Shown here: positions 1 through 63,445 of the stretch, one piece after another
Layout of the letters: every line of letters starts with the position of its first letter
Position numbering within the stretch: the first letter of the stretch is position 1
Origin: Aurantiacibacter sp. D1-12
GTDB taxonomy: Bacteria; Pseudomonadota; Alphaproteobacteria; Sphingomonadales; Sphingomonadaceae
DNA: 64,000 bases
NCBI RefSeq assembly: GCF_028858515.1
Contig: NZ_JAPJZJ010000005.1
Span: forward strand, 62,001 to 126,000
Direction of reading: 5' to 3'
The notes under the pieces: generated by a model
Databases searched by the model: none
Told to the model about the DNA's origin: nothing
The model's input: the letters and a program-made list of their open reading frames with translations, nothing else
Program-made: the position numbers and the translations under genes

Positions 1-353
1 AAGGCAACATCCGGTTCAAACAACGGGCAACCAATCGCGATTTCGAGGCCGTCAACAATCTGCCCTCCTTCGGCTTGAAGAGCTTCGTAGAGAGTGCTTC
101 CATTCATTGGAGGCTGGTCTCCAATCAGTGGCGCATCGGGCAGATCCAAAAAAACCCGATGACCGGATCTCGCCATCAAGAACGCTGATGTGGTAATCGC
201 CACCTGCCCGGACAAAGTCGAAACGGTCGCCTCGTCCGCTACCAACAGAAAACTGGCGCCGGTTAAAGCACGAAGGACAGAATCCGCATCTTTGATCCCT
301 AGATCATCTTGGAAAAGCTGAACTGTCCGAGCGAATTGTTGAGCGCTAACCAT
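1..353 (-). CDS. ThiF/E1-like adenylyltransferase, N-terminal part (truncated by window edge)
   Basis: Only about the first 117 codons are visible; the gene runs off the left edge. It starts with ATG at 353 and overlaps the JAB gene stop by 8 bp, so it is translated in the same operon. The visible part has a hydrophobic strand-rich region (SFLLVAD, HRVFLDLPDAPLIG) and a conserved-looking end (EIAIGCPLFEPDVA). From memory this resembles the N-terminal domain that precedes the ThiF/E1 domain in bacterial ubiquitin-like operons. The diagnostic E1 features (GxGxxG loop, ATP-binding Arg/Lys, catalytic Cys) would lie beyond the edge, so the E1 assignment is inference from position after a ubiquitin-like gene and a JAB gene. 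An E2-like gene would be expected further left. Confidence 0.5.
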   Translation of the reverse strand, partial: MVSAQQFARTVQLFQDDLGIKDADSVLRALTGASFLLVADEATVSTLSGQVAITTSAFLMARSGHRVFLDLPDAPLIGDQPPMNGSTLYEALQAEGGQIVDGLEIAIGCPLFEPDVA

Positions 354-792
354 CGATCTGTATCCTCGCCTCTATATCAACCTGTTGCCAACTGCCATCC
401 GACTGAATCTCGGTCAGGTAAGCTCTATCAAAACCGACAGGCCCCATTGCGAAATCCGGGATAACCAAGCTCAAGAAACCGGCCTCGGGCAGCAATGGGT
501 AGGCGTCGTCTGTAGCGGAGTGAAAAGCTTCTGATGGGTGCGTATGCACTTGTACTCGGACGCCCATTCCCCTGTCGGCTAGATCATTCCAAAATTCATT
601 GATCCACCCACTATCGATGCTGAGCGCATACGCGGACGACAAATGGCGGGGATGCACAACTTCAAGCAATTTTAGCGGGTCATTCCAGCTGCTCACCCAG
701 TACAATTGGCACTCGCGGCGGTTGTCGCCGCATGATCGTAGAACATGGAATGTCTCTTCGATCATGCGGCGCGGAAGCGAAAACAAAGGCAT
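346..792 (-). CDS. JAB/JAMM-family isopeptidase (Mov34/MPN-like)
   Basis: A 148-residue single-domain protein. The metal-binding JAMM signature is visible: Glu27 in RRECQL, then His83-x-His85 in VHTHPS, then Ser92-x2-Asp95. This is the pattern of zinc deubiquitinase-like proteases. In bacterial ubiquitin-like systems the JAB protein processes the modifier or removes it from targets. The gene starts 1 bp after the ubiquitin-like gene stop and overlaps the E1-like gene by 8 bp, so the three are one transcript. There is no signal peptide, so a cytoplasmic location is expected. The fold is shared with RadC at 48705-49412, but the context here points to Ubl processing. The exact substrate is unknown. 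Confidence 0.75.
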   Translation of the reverse strand: MPLFSLPRRMIEETFHVLRSCGDNRRECQLYWVSSWNDPLKLLEVVHPRHLSSAYALSIDSGWINEFWNDLADRGMGVRVQVHTHPSEAFHSATDDAYPLLPEAGFLSLVIPDFAMGPVGFDRAYLTEIQSDGSWQQVDIEARIQIDG

Positions 793-793
793 C

Positions 794-1093
794 TCAGCCG
801 GCCTTCACAGCGGACGGGCGGAGGAGAAGCGTGTCTTTTTTCTTGACCTTCGATTGCTTGACGGTTTCGGCGTCTTTCAGTTCGGAGCCCTCTTCATCGA
901 ACAGCGACAGGATGTGCTGGTTGGACGTGATGCCAAACGTACTGATCGCCTTCTGCAGCAGAGCGCTGATCAGCTCTGCATTCGACGTTTCGACCTGCTT
1001 CGTGAGGCCATTGTACTTCACACCGATTTCGAACGGCTTGTTCTGGCCGACATCGTCGGGCCGCTTGCTCGTCATTCCATTCTCGCTCGCCAT
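794..1093 (-). CDS. small ubiquitin-like beta-grasp protein (modifier)
   Basis: A 99-residue protein. A charged tail of about 18 residues is followed by what reads as one ubiquitin-fold domain (residues 19-93): strand KPFEIGVKYNG, strand TKQVET, helix AELISALLQKAI, then HILSLFDEEG and a last strand KKDTLLLRP. The chain ends Ala-Gly immediately before the stop, so a C-terminal glycine is already exposed for adenylation. It resembles the DUF2604-type ubiquitin-like family from memory. The start is taken at ATG 1093 because GGAG precedes it at good spacing; an in-frame TTG at 1105 lies on that Shine-Dalgarno. It is first in the operon, followed by JAB and E1-like genes, and that context carries much of the call. 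Confidence 0.65.
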   Translation of the reverse strand: MASENGMTSKRPDDVGQNKPFEIGVKYNGLTKQVETSNAELISALLQKAISTFGITSNQHILSLFDEEGSELKDAETVKQSKVKKKDTLLLRPSAVKAG

Positions 1094-1124
1094 GGTTATC
1101 TCCAAATTTGCGAATCAAACAATT

Positions 1125-1142
1125 GATTGCTAGGAAGCAATC
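1125..1142. promoter_or_regulatory. candidate operator 1, dyad GATTGC-N6-GCAATC
   Basis: A perfect 6-bp inverted repeat with a 6-bp spacer lies in the divergent intergenic region, 32 bp upstream of the ubiquitin-like gene start. A near-identical dyad is centred 45 bp away at 1170-1187. A repeated dyad between a divergent XRE regulator and its neighbour operon is the classic arrangement for repressor binding. Confidence 0.6.
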
Positions 1143-1169
1143 GGCAGCTTGATGAAGGAGACTCGCCAT

Positions 1170-1187
1170 GATTGCAAGATCGCAATT
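1170..1187. promoter_or_regulatory. candidate operator 2, dyad GATTGC-N6-GCAATT
   Basis: This repeats the same half-sites and the same 6-bp spacer as the dyad at 1125-1142, with one mismatch at the outer position. It lies 33 bp upstream of the preferred XRE start at 1220, so it may serve autoregulation while the other copy controls the ubiquitin-like operon. Confidence 0.6.
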
Positions 1188-1219
1188 TATTTCATTTGTG
1201 GAATTTCGTCGGTGACCGC

Positions 1220-1567
1220 ATGAGTCCCGGCTTTAACCAAGAGGCCTTTTACGCGGCACTCGATACCGAGCGCCTATCGAGACGAAAAACTTGGAAGCAG
1301 GTTGCGGAAGAAAGCACAGTCCCAGCTTCCTCGCTTTCAAGAATGAAAAAGGGAAAAAAGCCAGATGTAGACAGTCTAGCAAAATTGATCAGCTGGTCGA
1401 ATTTAAAAACAGAATATTTCATCGATCAGTCCGGAGAGGAAAATGCGTCTTCAATTGCAAGAATTACAGCTCTCTTAAGAGCCGATCCGAAATTGGATCA
1501 AACCGCCAAAGATACTTTGGAGAAGGTAATTCTTTCTACTTATAACGTTTTGCTGCCAAAGGGATAA
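1220..1567 (+). CDS. XRE-family helix-turn-helix regulator (likely repressor)
   Basis: A 115-residue protein with an N-terminal helix-turn-helix (KTWKQVAEESTVPASSLSRM, then the recognition-helix region KKGKKPDVDSLAKLISW) and a C-terminal helical segment. ATG 1220 is preferred because the next in-frame upstream start (TTG 1172) lies inside the second operator dyad. The metallopeptidase gene follows 3 bp downstream, the pairing seen for ImmR/ImmA and CapH/CapP, where the protease cleaves the repressor after a damage or infection signal. It is divergent from the ubiquitin-like operon, which it probably represses. Base composition is clearly more AT-rich than the core genes to the right, consistent with transfer. 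Confidence 0.8.
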   Translation: MSPGFNQEAFYAALDTERLSRRKTWKQVAEESTVPASSLSRMKKGKKPDVDSLAKLISWSNLKTEYFIDQSGEENASSIARITALLRADPKLDQTAKDTLEKVILSTYNVLLPKG

Positions 1568-1570
1568 GAC

Positions 1571-2122
1571 GTGAAGCACGGTTTCAAGGCTCAAGCCAAT
1601 CGAATTGCCCTTGAAATGAGAAGAGAGTTCGGGCTCGCGCCCGAGGCTCCCATGTGCCCTTTCATTCTTTGCGAACATTTTGAAATCCGAGTGCTGCCTC
1701 TGTCGCAATTCAGCGACGAGGCAGCCTATTTCCTTTCGGAAGGATCAAGCGCATTCTCGGCCGTCACCGTCCAACGCGGAATTAACCGCGCGATTGTTCA
1801 TAACGATAGTCATTCTGTAGTTCGGCAACATAGCAACCTGATGCATGAACTCGCTCATGCCTTTCTGGGGCATCCACCTTGCGAGGCTTTCGATGAGGAT
1901 GGAGAGAGGGTATATAGTTCGGACATTGAGCAAGAAGCCAACTTTCTTGCTGGGTGTCTCAAAGTCACAAACGAAGCCGCGTGGCACATTGTAAAGAATG
2001 GGCTTCAAAGTACTGCGCCAGAAATCTACAAAGTTAGCAACGCGATGCTCAATTGGCGCCTTCAGGTATCTGGCGCAAATATCCGAGCTATGAGGAGCAA
2101 GAGTAAAAGGCGAGCTAGCTAG
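1571..2122 (+). CDS. ImmA/IrrE-family metallo-endopeptidase
   Basis: A 183-residue protein starting with GTG 3 bp after the XRE stop. The zinc site is visible: His92-Glu93-x2-His96 in MHELAHAFLGH, with a likely third ligand Glu in QEANFLAG (about residue 122). ImmA/IrrE proteins cleave or inactivate a partner XRE repressor, as in ICEBs1 ImmA, Deinococcus IrrE/PprI and CapP of CBASS operons. The inferred job here is to relieve repression of the divergent ubiquitin-like operon. There is no signal peptide. The gene ends 8 bp before a duplicated piece of the lepA 3' end and converges with lepA. Confidence 0.85.
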   Translation: MKHGFKAQANRIALEMRREFGLAPEAPMCPFILCEHFEIRVLPLSQFSDEAAYFLSEGSSAFSAVTVQRGINRAIVHNDSHSVVRQHSNLMHELAHAFLGHPPCEAFDEDGERVYSSDIEQEANFLAGCLKVTNEAAWHIVKNGLQSTAPEIYKVSNAMLNWRLQVSGANIRAMRSKSKRRAS

Positions 2123-2130
2123 AGGTTTTC

Positions 2131-2188
2131 ACTCCTCCCCATCCGCAGCGCAGCGACAAACGCCTCCTGCGAAATGCTCACATTCCCC
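2131..2188 (-). pseudogene. diverged duplicate of the lepA 3' end (island junction)
   Basis: This 58-bp stretch aligns with the last 59 bp of lepA (2251-2309) with 10 mismatches and one 1-bp gap, about 81% identity by eye. Translated on the minus strand it gives GNVSISQEAFVAALRMG against [17 protein letters not shown] in LepA. The gap removes one G just before the stop, so the reading continues as RSENL. The changes are largely conservative at protein level, so this looks like the 3' end of another lepA allele rather than a fresh duplication. The 60 bp between the copies holds two small GC hairpins (CCGGC-CTAC-GCCGG and CGCCC-TGC-GGGCG). Confidence 0.75.
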
Positions 2189-6478: not shown

Positions 6479-9217
6479 CTAACTTGCCTTCTTGAGTTCT
6501 TCCGGTTCCAGCTGTTTCGGAGGCGCCCCTTGAAGTGCCGTGATGTTGCCATCCTTGTCCTTCTGCAACGGATTGGCGAACTCCACACCCATACGATCAT
6601 CAAGTGCCCAGATCACCCTGATGCCGACGGTAAAATCCTGCGCAAGCTGCAGCTGGAACTCGGTGCCCACGGGAACATTCCAGAGCCCTTCGATCATGGC
6701 TCCCGTTACCGAGAGGTTGCGGACCGTCCCGTTATAGATGTGACCACCGTGATCGAGAACGACCTTGCGCAGCATTTTCTGACGCGGCGAGCGCGAGCAT
6801 TTGGGACCCTTGGCGATGGCAGTCAGATCGCCGGCAAGCCTGCTCGTGGCGACATCGAAGGTCAGGGCACGATCGTAGATAAAGCCCTGAACATGGCTGC
6901 AACCATGCGCACGGATCAGCTCCAGCTCATCATGCGTCTCAACACCCTCTGCCGTCGTATCCATGCCCAGTGATTGGGCAAGCGAAGTGATCGACGAGAT
7001 GATGGCCGCGTTACGGCTCCCCTTCTCCGTCATTCCGCGCACAAAGCTCTGATCGATCTTGATCTTGTCGAACGGAGCCTTCTTCAGATAGCCGAGCGAC
7101 GAATAGCCGGTCCCGAAGTCATCGAGCGCCAAGCGCACACCAATCGCCTTGAGGTTGGCGAACATGGCATCGGTGCCTTCATCATCACCCAGGAAAACGC
7201 TCTCGGTGATTTCCAGCTCTAGGCGCGATGAACGCACCCCGGCAGCGGCGATGGCATTGGCAACGATTGTCGGCAGCTGCGGGTTCGAAAACTGAACGGG
7301 TGACACGTTCACCGCCACACGCACTTCTTCCGGCCATTGTGCAAGATCGCGGCACGCCTGACGCAGGGCCCATTCGCCGATCTGCTGGATGAGCCCGCTG
7401 TCCTCGGCAATGCCGACAAAGCGTTCTGGCGAGATCCAGCCTTTGACCGGATGTTGCCAACGCAGCAGAGCCTCAAAGCCCGAAATCTTGTTCGTCGCCA
7501 TGGCGACAACCGGCTGGTAGTGTAGCTCCAACTCGCCGTTGGCCACGGCGTCACGCAGGTCCTCCTCCAACTTCGCCTTCGCTTCAGCCTCGGCATGCAA
7601 GTCTTCGGAGTAGAAGTGATATCGGCCCCGGCCGCCATCTTTTGCGGCGTAAAGGGCAAGGTCGGCATTGCGGATCAGCTCTTCGGAACTGCGGCCATGA
7701 TCTGGCGCAATGGCGATACCGACAGATGCGCCAATCACGACACGCTGGCCATCAATCGAATACGGTTGGGACAGCGAATGAATGATCTCGCGCCCGAGGC
7801 CAGCCAAGTCGCTTTCGGCAACCTTGGCGGGAACGATGACCTTGAATTCGTCTCCTCCCAGACGCCCAACTTGACCAAGCTTGCCAACCGCACGCTCCAG
7901 ACGTTGGGCAACCTGCTTGAGCAAGGCATCACCAGCCGGGTGCCCCATCGTATCGTTGACCTGCTTGAAGCGGTCGAGGTCGAGAAGCAGAATGGCGCAG
8001 TTACGGCTGGCCTCGGAATAGGAGGTCAAGATCTTCTCGAGCGCCTGCGACATCTGCAGACGGTTAGCGAGGCCCGTAAGAGCGTCATACCGTGCCAGCC
8101 GGGTCGCCTGTTCCTGGCTCCGTTTCCGTTCGGTCAAATCGGTACCCGATCCGCGAAAACCGACGAAGTTTTCAAACTGATCGAAGATCGGACGACCCGA
8201 AACCGACCACCAGCGTTCCTCATTGTTGATCGCGGCGCGTACCGGTAGCTCTGCGAAAGCAGAACGCGCAGAAAGGTGGAACATCAGCGTGCGTTCACCT
8301 TCATCGCCGGTATCGTTCAGGTCAAAAAGACAGGTCAGTGGCTGACCGATCAACCGTTCCGGGTTGCGGCGGAGCGCCTTGGCGACCGGAGGGGAAACAT
8401 AGGTGAGGAGTGAGCGCCGGTCGGTTTCCCAGAACCAGCCCTGCCCGGTTTCTTCATAGTCCGAAAGAATGTCCCGTGCACGCGTCTGGACGCGGTCCTG
8501 CGCCTCCAGCCGTTCGCGCTCCTCGCGCTGCTCGATCAGTTGTTCGCGGCTGACAAGTACTGCAATGGCAGACGCGACGAGGAGACCGATGACGCCAACT
8601 AGCGCACCCAATGCGAACACTGTTGCAGACCAGATCGCGAACTGTGCTGCAAAAATCGCTATTGGCTGGCGGCGCATGTAGGCGGTGGCAATCGCGCTTA
8701 GGCTGAGGATTCCCGCAAGCGCCACGTCCCAGCTTATCCCGCCGTTGCTTGCCCAATTGGAAATTCCGAGTCCAAGCGCGAAGAGCGGAAGCATCACGCC
8801 GATAGCAAGACCAACGCCCTGCGCCACGACACCTCGTTCCGCAACGTGATCGTAAACGCGGTGCAGTTGCATCGCCATCAACAGGGAGAACCCGAGCAAG
8901 GCCCATGTGGACATACTCGGCATTGCAACTGCGAATGCAGCACAAACGGCAACCGCTGCTACCATGCTCAGGATGAGGTAGTTCCAGCTCCTCGGAAAGA
9001 GGAGGGCCGGTTTATTTTCCTGCGTAGGTGCGTTCACAGCACGATCGACATGGGGCGTTCTGCGTGGGCCCTTGCGCCGTTCTTTTGCAAGATCGGGCCG
9101 TGCAACCTCACGCGGCACTTGGCGCGTAGCAGCATCCCCTCCCCCACGCGCGGACGTGGGAGACGGTGCGCTGGCCTTCGCGGCTTGGCGGGTCGCACGT
9201 GTCATAGGCAAAGCCAT
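6479..9217 (-). CDS. membrane-anchored PAS-GGDEF-EAL-PilZ cyclic-di-GMP signalling protein
   Basis: About 912 residues from ATG 9217; the open frame extends further upstream but would run into the divergent reductase promoter. A basic, Ala/Pro-rich N-terminus is followed by roughly six hydrophobic helices (NYLILSMVAAVAVCAAF to VGVIGLLVASAIAVLV), a coiled segment, PAS, GGDEF ([12 protein letters not shown] intact, no RxxD I-site), EAL ([22 protein letters not shown] intact) and PilZ. The PilZ NLSVTG motif is present, but the expected RxxxR reads QKMLR, so one c-di-GMP-binding arginine appears lost. It is paralogous to the gene at 4137-6377, which has the same order, suggesting tandem duplication followed by gain of a membrane sensor. 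Confidence 0.9.
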   Translation of the reverse strand: MALPMTRATRQAAKASAPSPTSARGGGDAATRQVPREVARPDLAKERRKGPRRTPHVDRAVNAPTQENKPALLFPRSWNYLILSMVAAVAVCAAFAVAMPSMSTWALLGFSLLMAMQLHRVYDHVAERGVVAQGVGLAIGVMLPLFALGLGISNWASNGGISWDVALAGILSLSAIATAYMRRQPIAIFAAQFAIWSATVFALGALVGVIGLLVASAIAVLVSREQLIEQREERERLEAQDRVQTRARDILSDYEETGQGWFWETDRRSLLTYVSPPVAKALRRNPERLIGQPLTCLFDLNDTGDEGERTLMFHLSARSAFAELPVRAAINNEERWWSVSGRPIFDQFENFVGFRGSGTDLTERKRSQEQATRLARYDALTGLANRLQMSQALEKILTSYSEASRNCAILLLDLDRFKQVNDTMGHPAGDALLKQVAQRLERAVGKLGQVGRLGGDEFKVIVPAKVAESDLAGLGREIIHSLSQPYSIDGQRVVIGASVGIAIAPDHGRSSEELIRNADLALYAAKDGGRGRYHFYSEDLHAEAEAKAKLEEDLRDAVANGELELHYQPVVAMATNKISGFEALLRWQHPVKGWISPERFVGIAEDSGLIQQIGEWALRQACRDLAQWPEEVRVAVNVSPVQFSNPQLPTIVANAIAAAGVRSSRLELEITESVFLGDDEGTDAMFANLKAIGVRLALDDFGTGYSSLGYLKKAPFDKIKIDQSFVRGMTEKGSRNAAIISSITSLAQSLGMDTTAEGVETHDELELIRAHGCSHVQGFIYDRALTFDVATSRLAGDLTAIAKGPKCSRSPRQKMLRKVVLDHGGHIYNGTVRNLSVTGAMIEGLWNVPVGTEFQLQLAQDFTVGIRVIWALDDRMGVEFANPLQKDKDGNITALQGAPPKQLEPEELKKAS

Positions 9218-9368
9218 GCCATTTTCCGTTTGAAGAACGGTTAACTGCAGGCGAAATATTCTTGCGTGGTCGTAACAGGGTATAGCTGTCCACCGTGTAT
9301 TGCCGCGCCTCTCAAAAAGGTTAATATCCAGCAAGCTTTCGACCATGCCACAGCTGGTGGGAGAGACC

Positions 9369-10685
9369 ATGCGGCATATTGCTATTATCGGTTCGGGACC
9401 GGCGGGATATTACACCGCCGAAGCAGCGCAAAAGACATTTGGAGATAACGTCCGTGTGGACGTGTTCGATATGCTGCCCGTCCCCTATGGCCTGATCCGC
9501 ACAGGCGTGGCTCCTGATCACCAGTCGATCAAAGGTGTTTCTCGTCGCTATGAAAAGACAGCACTGACGGAAAATGTCCGCTTTGTCGGCAACGTAGCTG
9601 TCGGGCGCGATGTGTCGGTTGCACAGTTGCAGGAACTCTACGACGCCGTGGTCCTGGCAACAGGTGCTCCCAAGGATCGGGCGCTCGGTCTTCCGGGAGA
9701 AGATCTGGACAATGTGATCGGCAGCGCGGCCTTTGTCGGCTGGTACAACGGGCATCCTGAATTCGCCGACCTTAATCCCGATCTCTCCGGCGATACCGCG
9801 GTGGTTATCGGGATGGGCAATGTTGCGCTGGATGTTGCCCGGATGCTCGCCAAGACGCCTGCCGAACTTGAAGGCAGCGATATCGTCGGCCACGCATGGG
9901 ATGCGCTAAAAGCGAGCAATATCGAACGGATCGTCATCCTTGGTCGCCGCGGTCCGCACCAGATCATGATGACGCCCAAGGAGCTCGGCGAACTCGGTCA
10001 GCTGGATCGCGCCGCGCCGCATGTCGATGCCGATGACCTGCCGGAAGAAGGTGATGATGCCCTCCTGGAGCCGGGTCTGCGCAAATCGGTCACTCTTCTT
10101 CGCGAATATGCTGCCACGCCCGAACACATCCGTGCAGAAAAACCTGTGGCGATCGAGTTTGCTTTCTTCAGCCAACCCAATGCCTTACACGGAGACGGGA
10201 AGGTTTCATCGATCGAGATCGAGGAAACCGAACTGCAAAAAGGCCGTGCCGTTGGTACCGGTAAAACAACCACACTGCCTGCCAACATGGTGGTCAGTTG
10301 CATCGGCTATCGCACTGCGCCCATTCCCGGGATCCCGTTTGACGAACGGGCCGGGCGCTTTGCCAATGATGAAGGGCGCATCCTGCGTGGCCTCTATTGC
10401 GTCGGCTGGGCGCGGCGCGGTCCATCCGGAACGATCGGGACGAACAAGCCTGACGGAGTGGCCATAGTCGGCCATATCGCAGAAGATATCGAAAGCGGCA
10501 CGCTTGGCCGCAGCGGCAAAAAAGGCCGTGCCGGATTTGATGCACTCGCTGCAGAAAGCGGCCTCGATGTGGTTACTTTCCAGGACTGGAAAAAAATCGA
10601 AGAGGCAGAGGAAGCCGCTGCTCGTGAAGGCGCCCCGCGCGAAAAATTCGTCGACATTGAAGCGATGATCAGAGCGGTGAACTAG
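9369..10685 (+). CDS. ferredoxin--NADP(+) reductase, adrenodoxin reductase/FprA type
   Basis: A 438-residue FAD/NADPH oxidoreductase passing electrons between NADPH and ferredoxin. The FAD-binding Rossmann motif is at the very N-terminus (IAIIGSGPAGYYTAEAA), and the NADPH-binding GMGNVALDVAR region lies at about 160. The C-terminus (GWARRGPSGTIGTNKPDG) is characteristic of the adrenodoxin-reductase family. The start is ATG 9369, preceded by GGGAGAG; in-frame upstream starts at 9300 lack a comparable site. It is divergent from the membrane GGDEF-EAL gene across a 150-bp spacer. The physiological ferredoxin partner is not in the window. Confidence 0.92.
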   Translation: MRHIAIIGSGPAGYYTAEAAQKTFGDNVRVDVFDMLPVPYGLIRTGVAPDHQSIKGVSRRYEKTALTENVRFVGNVAVGRDVSVAQLQELYDAVVLATGAPKDRALGLPGEDLDNVIGSAAFVGWYNGHPEFADLNPDLSGDTAVVIGMGNVALDVARMLAKTPAELEGSDIVGHAWDALKASNIERIVILGRRGPHQIMMTPKELGELGQLDRAAPHVDADDLPEEGDDALLEPGLRKSVTLLREYAATPEHIRAEKPVAIEFAFFSQPNALHGDGKVSSIEIEETELQKGRAVGTGKTTTLPANMVVSCIGYRTAPIPGIPFDERAGRFANDEGRILRGLYCVGWARRGPSGTIGTNKPDGVAIVGHIAEDIESGTLGRSGKKGRAGFDALAAESGLDVVTFQDWKKIEEAEEAAAREGAPREKFVDIEAMIRAVN

Positions 10686-61727: not shown

Positions 61728-63445
61728 GCCGCGGCCTCCGGCGCAACAACACCGCTGTCTTTGCCAGCACGCTTCTGCCTGATCCATTCGAAAATACACA
61801 GGACAACCGCCACACCGCCGATCAAGGTCGTCAGGATGAAGACGTCAAAATAGCCGCGATCTTCGATCATTTCGCCTAGCGCGCCGCGGCCCAAAGTGCC
61901 CACCAGCAGCGTGAGTGAGGAGAGCAGCGCGTATTGCACGGCGGAATACTTCTTCGACACGATTGAGCTGAGCCACGCGACATAGGCTGCACCGGCGATA
62001 CCGATGGCGAGGTTCTCCCACATGATCGTGAAGGTCAGCCGCGGCAAAGCCTCTGAACCGAACGGTGCCATGAAGTTGATCAGAGCGGAGAAGCCGATTG
62101 CATCGCTGGCCGCCTGCATGTTCGCCCCGCCGATTGCCATATCGGCGTAGAGCAGATTGGTCAGCGCGGCGATCAGCGCACCGAAGGTTAGCGTCGCCAT
62201 TCGGCCTACAACGGTAAGCATGTAGCCGCCCAGCGCCAGCCCAGCGATGATCGCACCCACGCCGAAGAACTTGGAAGCGAAGGCCACCTCGTCGTTCGTG
62301 TAGTTCAGTTCACCCAGATAGAACGGATAGGCAAAGGTGCCCCAGATCGCGTCGCAGATGCGATAGGTCAGGACGAGCGAGAGGATCAGCACAAGCGACC
62401 AGCCCATGCGGCCGACAAATTCGACCAGCGGCATCACCAGCGCGCGGTAGAGATGGTCGATGGCAAACGAACCGCCCTCGCCTGCAACCATGTCTTCGGT
62501 CATCACGTTCTCGCCCTTGCGCTTTTGCGAAGCGAGCCAGCCGGCAATGAAGGCCGGAATCACCACCGTCGCCACGATGATCCACGGACCGAAGTTCACC
62601 GTGAACTCAGTCGGATTCGGTCGCTCTTCGGGCGAATAGGCGAGCGACATATACATGAACGTCAGCACCGTCCCGATGGCAACCGCCCAAAGCAGGCCGA
62701 CCGCGCCCAGCGCTTTGGCGCGGACCGATGGCTTAAGCTCACCCGCTTTACGAAGGCTCAGGAGAAGCTCGTCTTCTTCACCCTCACCCGCTTCGCTGAC
62801 CTTGGTATCCGGCGCCCAAAGACCCGCGATGCCGATGGCGAGCAGGATGCCGCCCATGATCAGGTAAGTCTGCGGCCAACCGATGCGCGCCGCAATGATG
62901 AGGCCAAGCGCGCCGCCGACGAGTGCGGCAAGTCGGTAGCCCATCTGATAAACGGTCGAGAGGATATCTAGTGTCGCCTCCTCATCCGCCACATCGATAC
63001 GCCAGGCATTGATCGCAATATCCTGCGTCGCACTCGCGAGTGCCCCGATGCCGGCGAGCAGGCTGAACCAGCCGATTGCCTCGTTGGTCGGGTTGGACAG
63101 GCTCAACGCTATCAGGATCACGCCAAGAAGGATCTGTGCAGGTACGATCCATTGCTTGCGCTTGCCAAGCCTGGAAAAGCCGGGGATCGAAACCTTGTCG
63201 ATCAGCGGCGACCACAGGAACTGGAAAGCATAGGCAAGGCCGATAAGCGAGAAGACACCCATCGTCTCCAGCTCTACCTCTGCTTCGGAAAGCCAGGCGT
63301 AGAGCGTGCCGAGGAACAGCGAGAACGGCAGGCCGCTGGCGAACCCGAACAGCGCGGTGTATCCGCTCTTCGGATTACGCAGGCTCCTGAACAGCGTGCC
63401 CCAACCGGGCTTTTTCTTGGTCGTTTCAGCTGTGGCTTCGGCCAT
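61724..63445 (-). CDS. ampG: AmpG-family muropeptide MFS transporter
   Basis: A 573-residue MFS permease, longer than E. coli AmpG. AmpG landmarks are GYTALFGFASGLPFSLFLGTLYAWL, FQFLWSPLIDKV, RKQWIVPAQILLG and ASATQDIAINAWRIDV. About 14 hydrophobic segments are visible. It imports GlcNAc-anhydroMurNAc peptides for recycling, which matches the S66 carboxypeptidase and Mur ligase at 14125-16410. It is divergent from the pseudouridine synthase gene, overlapping folC at its 3' end. Confidence 0.9.
   Translation of the reverse strand: MAEATAETTKKKPGWGTLFRSLRNPKSGYTALFGFASGLPFSLFLGTLYAWLSEAEVELETMGVFSLIGLAYAFQFLWSPLIDKVSIPGFSRLGKRKQWIVPAQILLGVILIALSLSNPTNEAIGWFSLLAGIGALASATQDIAINAWRIDVADEEATLDILSTVYQMGYRLAALVGGALGLIIAARIGWPQTYLIMGGILLAIGIAGLWAPDTKVSEAGEGEEDELLLSLRKAGELKPSVRAKALGAVGLLWAVAIGTVLTFMYMSLAYSPEERPNPTEFTVNFGPWIIVATVVIPAFIAGWLASQKRKGENVMTEDMVAGEGGSFAIDHLYRALVMPLVEFVGRMGWSLVLILSLVLTYRICDAIWGTFAYPFYLGELNYTNDEVAFASKFFGVGAIIAGLALGGYMLTVVGRMATLTFGALIAALTNLLYADMAIGGANMQAASDAIGFSALINFMAPFGSEALPRLTFTIMWENLAIGIAGAAYVAWLSSIVSKKYSAVQYALLSSLTLLVGTLGRGALGEMIEDRGYFDVFILTTLIGGVAVVLCIFEWIRQKRAGKDSGVVAPEAAA

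Follow-up and report, generated by a model that had tools for sequence, protein, structure and literature searches.

A Bil-related ubiquitin-like operon without a detected E2 or an E1 cysteine domain, beside a predicted XRE/M78 switch in Aurantiacibacter sp. D1-12

How might a bacterial ubiquitin-like protein (Ubl) be conjugated by an operon in which neither an E2 enzyme nor the catalytic cysteine domain of the E1 enzyme is found? The question is raised by a locus at the start of a 64,000-nucleotide (nt) stretch of DNA from Aurantiacibacter sp. D1-12 (hereafter the window; positions 62001–126000 of contig NZ_JAPJZJ010000005.1, our G000:C8). The window starts within a three-gene minus-strand operon, the remainder of which was supplied by the host contig, encoding a Ubl modifier, a JAMM/JAB metalloprotease and an E1-like adenylating enzyme; genes for an XRE regulator and an M78 zinc peptidase adjoin it divergently. 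We put at about even the chance that these genes form a Bil-derived, E2-free pathway (Ubl, E1 and JAMM protease) that is induced by proteolytic de-repression, conjugates directly from the adenylate and probably serves in defence. The joint absence of the E1 cysteine and of an E2 is the less expected feature of the operon.

Only the 117 N-terminal codons of the E1 gene lie in the window (3–353, minus strand), and an earlier, sequence-only reading had recognized the cut protein as E1-like and looked to the DNA left of position 1 for its Cys domain and an E2 gene. Completion of the gene to 435 amino acids (aa) on the contig (L004 11046–12353) bears out the E1, which matches BilD in PADLOC (E = 1.6e-14), BilD in the Protein Data Bank (8tyz; E = 9.1e-12 with a two-row profile) and, below the curated cut-off, ThiF in Pfam (7.9e-6); neither a Cys domain nor an E2 gene was found there. 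BilD consists of two adenylation halves and a Cys domain of ∼80 residues with the reactive Cys417, and BilB is the E2 (PMC11354881, cited throughout from excerpts). When the E1 of the E2-less clade described below is matched by profile to solved BilD, residues 346–435 of BilD are skipped. In a 23-row E1 alignment the catalytic-Cys column holds a cysteine in all six alphaproteobacterial BilD proteins and a gap in all 16 clade E1s (the window and 15 relatives) as well as in L030. A cysteine is present in the loop after this column in each of the E2-bearing relatives L030, L053 and L054. An AlphaFold model of the Brevundimonas aveniformis orthologue (L007; predicted local distance difference test score (pLDDT) 91.7, predicted template modelling score (pTM) 0.93) contains two adenylation-type halves, corresponding to the inactive and active halves of a Bil-type E1, and only a short loop (∼357–370) at the position of the Cys domain. 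Its top fold match is BilD (8tyz_A; 1.9e-27, TMq 0.80), with ThiF, UBA6 and MoeB ranking lower. Alignment and predicted model thus both indicate that the E1 Cys domain is absent in this clade.

For the E2, a BilB profile found no match at E ≤ 1 in the host genome (2.57 Mb, 12 contigs, estimated completeness 100%) and none at E ≤ 0.01 in any of 18 carriers, i.e. 17 genomes, several of them metagenome-assembled genomes (MAGs), and the Rhizobium plasmid record by which alone Rhizobium was covered, while all three controls were positive. A broader profile of six E2s likewise matched none of the 18 carriers at E ≤ 0.01 and all three controls, one of which (L053) lay outside the profile; one match at 0.0147 was returned in the genome of L013. 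Among the open reading frames of the fetched loci, no E2 match below 0.1 occurred outside the Bil-type loci, and none adjoined the window operon. The Pfam family Prok-E2_B (PF14461) matched none of 21 genomes or records, a result that is uninformative because no control matched either. The usable answer comes from BilB-type profiles only and leaves room for a shared E2 or one of another family.

The modifier and the protease are related to their Bil counterparts. The Ubl gene (794–1093, minus strand; 99 aa, C-terminus ...LRPSAVKAG) could alternatively start at a TTG codon at 1105. Its protein had been read from the sequence as a β-grasp modifier, and structure prediction agrees: the AlphaFold model, from a 15-row alignment, has a β-grasp core and a loose N-terminus (mean pLDDT 82.6), and its top Foldseek match is 8tyz_B, the Ubl chain of a solved bacterial E1–E2–Ubl complex (4.2e-7), followed by ubiquitin and ISG15. 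Two Pfam matches exceed their curated cut-offs (DUF2604, 4.3e-6; UN_NPL4, 2.4e-4) and the ubiquitin match is weak (0.043); no mention of DUF2604 was found in the open-access literature searched. Both Pfam and the model indicate one domain, not the two of BilA. The JAMM-motif protein (346–792, minus strand; 148 aa, complete motif E27...HTHP(x5)SATD) proves to be related to BilC (PADLOC 1.5e-15; Protein Data Bank entry 8tyx, 2.1e-14), with Pfam Prok-JAB below its curated cut-off (0.003) and the motif intact in 17 of 17 sequences including the window's. An NCBIfam search returned no name for either protein.

What the protease might do is suggested by the modifier C-termini. The final Gly of the GG pair is invariant in the 15-row Ubl alignment, and all eight single-Ubl relatives carry further residues after the pair: five have a tail (VLCG, A, GGCE, SSDCGK or S) and three (L012, L017 and L019) continue into the JAB domain in one frame. 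By contrast, none of eight multi-Ubl proteins has such residues, and all end in GG. These tails and fusions, together with the complete JAMM motif, suggest that the protease frees the modifier terminus, by analogy with BilC, which is stated to free that of BilA (PMC11354881). In the window operon and the multi-Ubl group its role would be deconjugation, because the Ubl there already ends in AG or GG, respectively.

We then compared the operon with its relatives. Two short E1 peptides, of which one spans the CxxC motif, were used to scan 84,980 species genomes; this returned 17 loci, a lower bound biased towards E1s that contain the query peptides. The hosts are Brevundimonas, Sphingomonas, Novosphingobium, Caulobacter, an Afipia MAG, Acidobacteria MAGs and one Actinomycetes MAG; of 72,556 plasmids, only pRlX1 of Rhizobium beringeri (L006) matched. 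On that plasmid a second, divergent multiubiquitin–ThiF gene pair lies near the first operon (L006 1–1114, minus strand). The gene order, (multi)Ubl–JAB–E1, is kept in every one of the 17 loci, out of 18, that hold the region upstream of E1, where the intergenic distances run from −14 to +2 nt for the start codons chosen; L021 begins inside E1. L020, a copy of L019, enters neither the locus counts nor the E1 alignment, from which L021 and L022 (partial E1) were also left out. The single-Ubl group B comprises the window, L007, L008, L012, L015, L017, L019, L022 and L023, and the multi-Ubl group A comprises L006, L009, L010, L011, L013, L014, L016 and L018, whose last domain is a Ubl with a GG end; the L006 protein matches Pfam Multi_ubiq. 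In an E1 tree, rooted on six BilD rows and returned with a long-branch warning from the program, the 16 E2-less-type E1s form one clade (support 98/98) apart from nine Bil-type E1s, and group A is nested within group B (93/91), so that the single-Ubl form looks ancestral and the multi-Ubl form a derived branch. The E1s of the E2-bearing, Bil-like operons L030, L053 and L054 group next to the clade, and these operons may be its closest living sisters.

The E2-less clade is rare and occurs in Alphaproteobacteria, Acidobacteria and one Actinomycetes MAG. In an order-level sample the host alone matched (1 of 296 genomes). A class-level BilD profile search (E ≤ 1e-6) matched 16 of 385 genomes; besides the host's, the matches that were read are either of BilD type or the E2-bearing L030. 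Of the others, L028 is a fragment and L032–L039, taken from the table only, are short open frames of 255–300 aa. In the phylum of L012, three of 297 genomes match at E ≤ 1e-20, i.e. its own and two E2-bearing relatives. A phage origin was considered and dropped: no E1 match occurred in 50,697 phage records, and five pattern matches on viral contigs yielded no confirmed case, in a single-protein search whose reach was limited to close kin.

How the operon might be switched on is indicated by the divergent pair. The sequence-only reading had described an XRE regulator and an HExxH peptidase 3 bp apart, and both assignments hold: the regulator (1220–1567, plus strand; 115 aa), a predicted repressor, matches HTH_3 below the cut-off (3.7e-4), and the peptidase (1571–2122, plus strand; GTG start, 183 aa), of ImmA/IrrE type, matches Peptidase_M78 above it (8.4e-9) and contains HELAH, then EQEAN, and a candidate Glu ligand. 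A helix-turn-helix regulator and an M78 peptidase thus adjoin the operon as in CapH+CapP, although the window's own capH and capP matches are weak; the L007 regulator matches PADLOC capH at 1e-11. The pair is a near-constant neighbour. An XRE gene adjoins all eight single-Ubl loci whose upstream region is long enough (window, L007, L008, L012, L015, L017, L019 and L023) and an M78 gene adjoins seven of them. M78 is a scarce domain, the eight genomes holding 19 matches in total; L022 (480 nt upstream) and L021 do not enter these counts. The orientation is divergent in seven loci and same-strand in L007, and the two proteins are fused in L015 and L023. Two loci show further arrangements: in L012 a second M78-like gene lies directly downstream of E1 (8522–9904, plus strand), both M78 matches of that genome thereby flanking the operon, and in L017 (77–1484, minus strand) a gene that matches DUF3368 comes after that of the XRE protein, perhaps as a switch of another kind.

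Between the divergent genes of the window lie two strandless GATTGC-N6-GCAATY palindromes 45 bp apart, i.e. candidate operator 1 (1125–1142, GATTGC-N6-GCAATC) and candidate operator 2 (1170–1187, GATTGC-N6-GCAATT). The exact pattern occurs three times in the 2.57-Mb genome, twice at this operon. On the minus strand, which is the operon strand, palindrome 1 can also be read as a weakly scoring terminator-like hairpin, and attenuation there is therefore possible.

From these elements we propose the following sequence of events. At rest, the XRE protein would sit on the palindrome pair that separates the divergent genes and act as a repressor. Stress or infection would prompt the M78 peptidase to cleave the XRE protein, probably after activation by single-stranded DNA (ssDNA) as in its homologues CapP and PprI. 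The JAMM protease would trim those modifier precursors that carry a tail after Gly-Gly, and may also reverse conjugates. The E1, to judge from its conserved ThiF-type residues, would adenylate the terminal glycine of the modifier, and the acyl-adenylate would be passed straight to a target amine, like archaeal SAMP conjugation without E2 or E3. We propose this direct transfer because a Cys domain is missing from both E1 sequence and model and the searches detected no E2. The benefit would most likely be phage defence. We advance more tentatively, as somewhat less than an even chance, the wider proposition that an immune Ubl lineage lost both thioester steps, conjugates from the E1-bound adenylate and retained a protease-cleaved repressor across at least three phyla.

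The genomic setting bears on the defence role. The operon terminates with E1, since the neighbouring gene to the left (326 or 373 aa depending on the start chosen) has the opposite orientation, and lepA follows the peptidase. All five open reading frames lie where the sequence-only reading had placed them, and by their sequences we regard them as genuine genes, not chance frames; a single nucleotide separates the Ubl stop from the JAB start, and the JAB and E1 genes share 8 nt. The operon has a G+C content of 0.46–0.56 against 0.60–0.68 in the two flanking genes, and a low stretch (∼0.51) also lies farther left. Among 30 relatives in the genus, lepA and the 326-aa flank protein share a contig in 13, with matches 2.4–6.5 kb apart. 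No relative has the two flanks adjacent, i.e. no empty site was found, and in seven of seven loci lepA lies beyond 1.5 kb of the flank protein. The lepA side was read in seven of the 13 relatives, and five of them carry genes with PADLOC matches of 1e-10 or better (L056, L057, L061, L062 and L065): a DRT-type UG5-nitrilase reverse transcriptase (7.8e-108), PDC-M38A/PD-Lambda-5_A (1.2e-16), HEC-05 with Pfam GmrSD_N (1.1e-19), PDC-M63A with DUF6932 (1.8e-15) and a HerA C-terminal part (3.3e-33). The PDC and HEC entries we take to be candidate families. The remaining two hold a ParA-like ATPase that matches weakly (G711) and a multicopper oxidase with no match (G019). Site content and G+C support, short of proof, a role in defence and an origin by transfer. 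Two further observations concern the same site. A congener lacking the shared second flank has a mads_2 match (1.8e-9) by lepA (L064 2459–3595, minus strand). In the host, the lepA gene is followed closely by a copy of its final ∼60 bp (window 2129–2187 and 2249–2308, 82%), with shorter lepA-end repeats in two of 11 other congeners examined (L056 and L066); these repeats hint at an insertion event at the 3′ end of lepA.

Several points weigh against the proposed pathway or its switch. Regarding the chemistry: (i) it is uncommon for transfer to proceed directly from an adenylate, and sulfur-carrier pathways have JAMM proteases too; (ii) the window Ubl ends in AG rather than GG; (iii) the conservation of CxxC is partly built in, because a scan peptide covered the motif; and (iv) the scope of the locus scan and of the E2 searches, given above, counts here as well. 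Regarding the switch: (i) RmrA outscores capH and capP in PADLOC for both window proteins (2.5e-5 against 0.0019 for XRE; 7.8e-7 against 2.6e-5 for M78); (ii) HExxH is intact in six of seven M78 proteins, L012 reading EEITH; and (iii) L017 has no recognizable M78 domain. Regarding the operators, the half-site is not special in itself, because versions with one mismatch are common in the genome (40 + 33 occurrences; 1 + 1 for a reversed-pattern control) and those with two mismatches in the window are no more frequent than chance (12 against 16.3). The best single inverted repeat of the region is ordinary (equalled in 35 of 200 shuffles); the matching pair was equalled in none of 2000 shuffles in a test designed after the pair had been seen. 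In the other divergent regions the numbers of shuffles as good, out of 200, are 3 (L012), 12 (L008), 74 (L019), 86 (L015), 175 (L017) and 200 (L023). Lastly, no consensus promoter was found at 1000–1300.

Among the alternatives, a stress (DNA-damage) response in which proteins of the cell itself receive the Ubl after ssDNA signals, with no role in phage defence, is unlikely but survives best. ssDNA activates CapP and PprI to cleave CapH and DdrO (PMC13373217 and PMC10904395, both cited from parts of the text throughout), and Bub operons are not known to protect from phage (PMC13373217). The multi-Ubl loci fit such a response as well: in all seven that hold the region, a large protein upstream combines an N-terminal M78 domain with a UvrD helicase (L006 3281–6700, with counterparts in L009, L010, L013, L014, L016 and L018), and six of the seven, all but L014, add a PD-(D/E)XK match (E ≤ 0.001); L011 (72 nt upstream) and L021 fall outside this count. 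This M78–UvrD(–nuclease) protein is possibly a fused DNA sensor and protease. In L006 the gene for this protein comes after a sigma-like gene and a small gene, and beyond the operon lies a second helicase/nuclease pair. Against a pure stress role stand the site shared with defence genes in relatives and the sparse distribution (1 of 296 genomes in the order, 1 of 297 in the phylum of L012).

Conjugation of the ordinary Bil/Bub type, in which the E2 would come from elsewhere in the cell or be an unrecognized protein and the acceptor would be a cysteine of the CxxC motif or a non-conserved one of the E1, appears distinctly unlikely. An E2 match adjoins E1 in each of the nearest relatives that bear one (L030, L053 and L054), and C350 and C353 of the CxxC motif are present in all 16 clade E1s. 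However, no BilB-type E2 was found in the 18 carriers at E ≤ 0.01, the orthologue model has no Cys domain, and the conserved cysteines form a CxxC ... CxxxC array, the CxxC of which aligns with that of ThiF and which is probably a zinc site. The CxxxC part is seen in 15 of 16 E1s; the E1 frame of the exception, L017, stops early inside its contig and hence the second pair is unseen. The canonical Bil or Bub cascade was dropped, since its E2 and E1 Cys domain were both searched for and neither was found.

A sulfur-carrier or biosynthetic pathway, in which the E1 adenylate is converted to a thiocarboxylate and the protease matures or releases the carrier, seems quite improbable. JAMM proteases do accompany sulfur carriers (CysO with Mec+, QbsE with QbsD), and an adenylating half without a Cys domain resembles ThiF and MoeB, both of which are among the fold matches. 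On the other hand, the best sequence and fold matches are Bil proteins, the neighbour proteins scanned include no sulfurtransferase or biosynthetic partner of the ThiS/ThiF or MoaD/MoeB kind, and the XRE/M78 linkage and defence-type neighbours do not suit such a pathway. Very improbable is an unrelated mobile-element switch that lies beside the operon by chance: such pairs also control integrative and conjugative elements and prophages, and the same-strand order in L007 and the diverse, sometimes fused XRE and M78 proteins would fit, but XRE and M78 genes adjoin eight and seven of the eight single-Ubl loci across three phyla, and a fused M78 domain all seven multi-Ubl loci. Type II CBASS was set aside because PADLOC assigns none of the five proteins to a CBASS cyclase or E1/E2 family and gives only the weak capH/capP matches of the switch.

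Compared with known systems, the E2-free pathway that we favour is nearest to Bil, which protects against phage through virion modification: BilD, BilC and the Bil Ubl are its closest relatives by sequence or fold. It differs in that no BilB E2 was detected, the Cys domain of BilD is absent, the modifier has one Ubl domain where BilA has two, and the E1 measures 435 aa against 535 aa in 8tyz (PMC11354881). Operons of polyUbl, JAB and E1 without an active E2 were already noted in 2006 (Iyer, Burroughs and Aravind, PMC1779556, section 14). Their row 6e, as given in the part of that paper cited here, shares E1, JAB, one to three Ubl domains and the lack of an active E2, but its JAB is mostly fused to E1, with JAB or another domain at the E1 N-terminus, and inactive E2/RWD domains are present; our operon has a separate JAB (fused to the Ubl in L012, L017 and L019, not to E1), a single Ubl and an attached XRE/M78 pair. 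Group A probably falls in or near this row. Archaeal SAMP conjugation also relies on E1-like enzymes without a Cys domain and proceeds without E2 or E3 (PMC11354881), whereas the window-type E1 keeps the Bil-type double adenylation fold in an operon with its own JAMM gene and switch. The archaeal UbaA is a MoeB-type enzyme, and Bub, in turn, has an E2. Bub operons resemble ours in neighbouring a helix-turn-helix–peptidase pair, with CapW or CapH+CapP at 219 of 544 (PMC13373217); by description only, ours is set apart by its Bil-like E1 and JAB and the lack of a found E2.

The sequence-only reading had proposed a ubiquitin-like conjugation operon in a combination not known to be described. Its first part stands as a Bil-related Ubl/JAMM/E1 operon, and an E1–E2 cascade does not. 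As to novelty, an XRE–peptidase switch beside a Ubl operon is known in general, because CapH+CapP next to Bub is in print (PMC13373217); what appears new relative to the open-access literature, outside which the main Bil/Bub papers lie and may describe an E2-less group, is a Bil-derived clade with neither E2 nor E1 Cys domain, together with its switch.

In brief, Bil shows bacteria running a eukaryote-like E1–E2 cascade, and the present lineage, which is related and keeps modifier, E1 and deconjugase but has no detected E2 and no E1 Cys, offers a contrast to it. Its three genes, together with what is likely an on-switch and a candidate operator open to testing, provide an inroad into the gain and loss of thioester relays, and the later branch of the E1 tree, with tandem modifiers and a protease–helicase fusion, offers related designs for comparison. 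If the proposed pathway is correct, it would reveal the smallest working ubiquitin-like pathway and whether adenylate transfer suffices for a regulated immune response.

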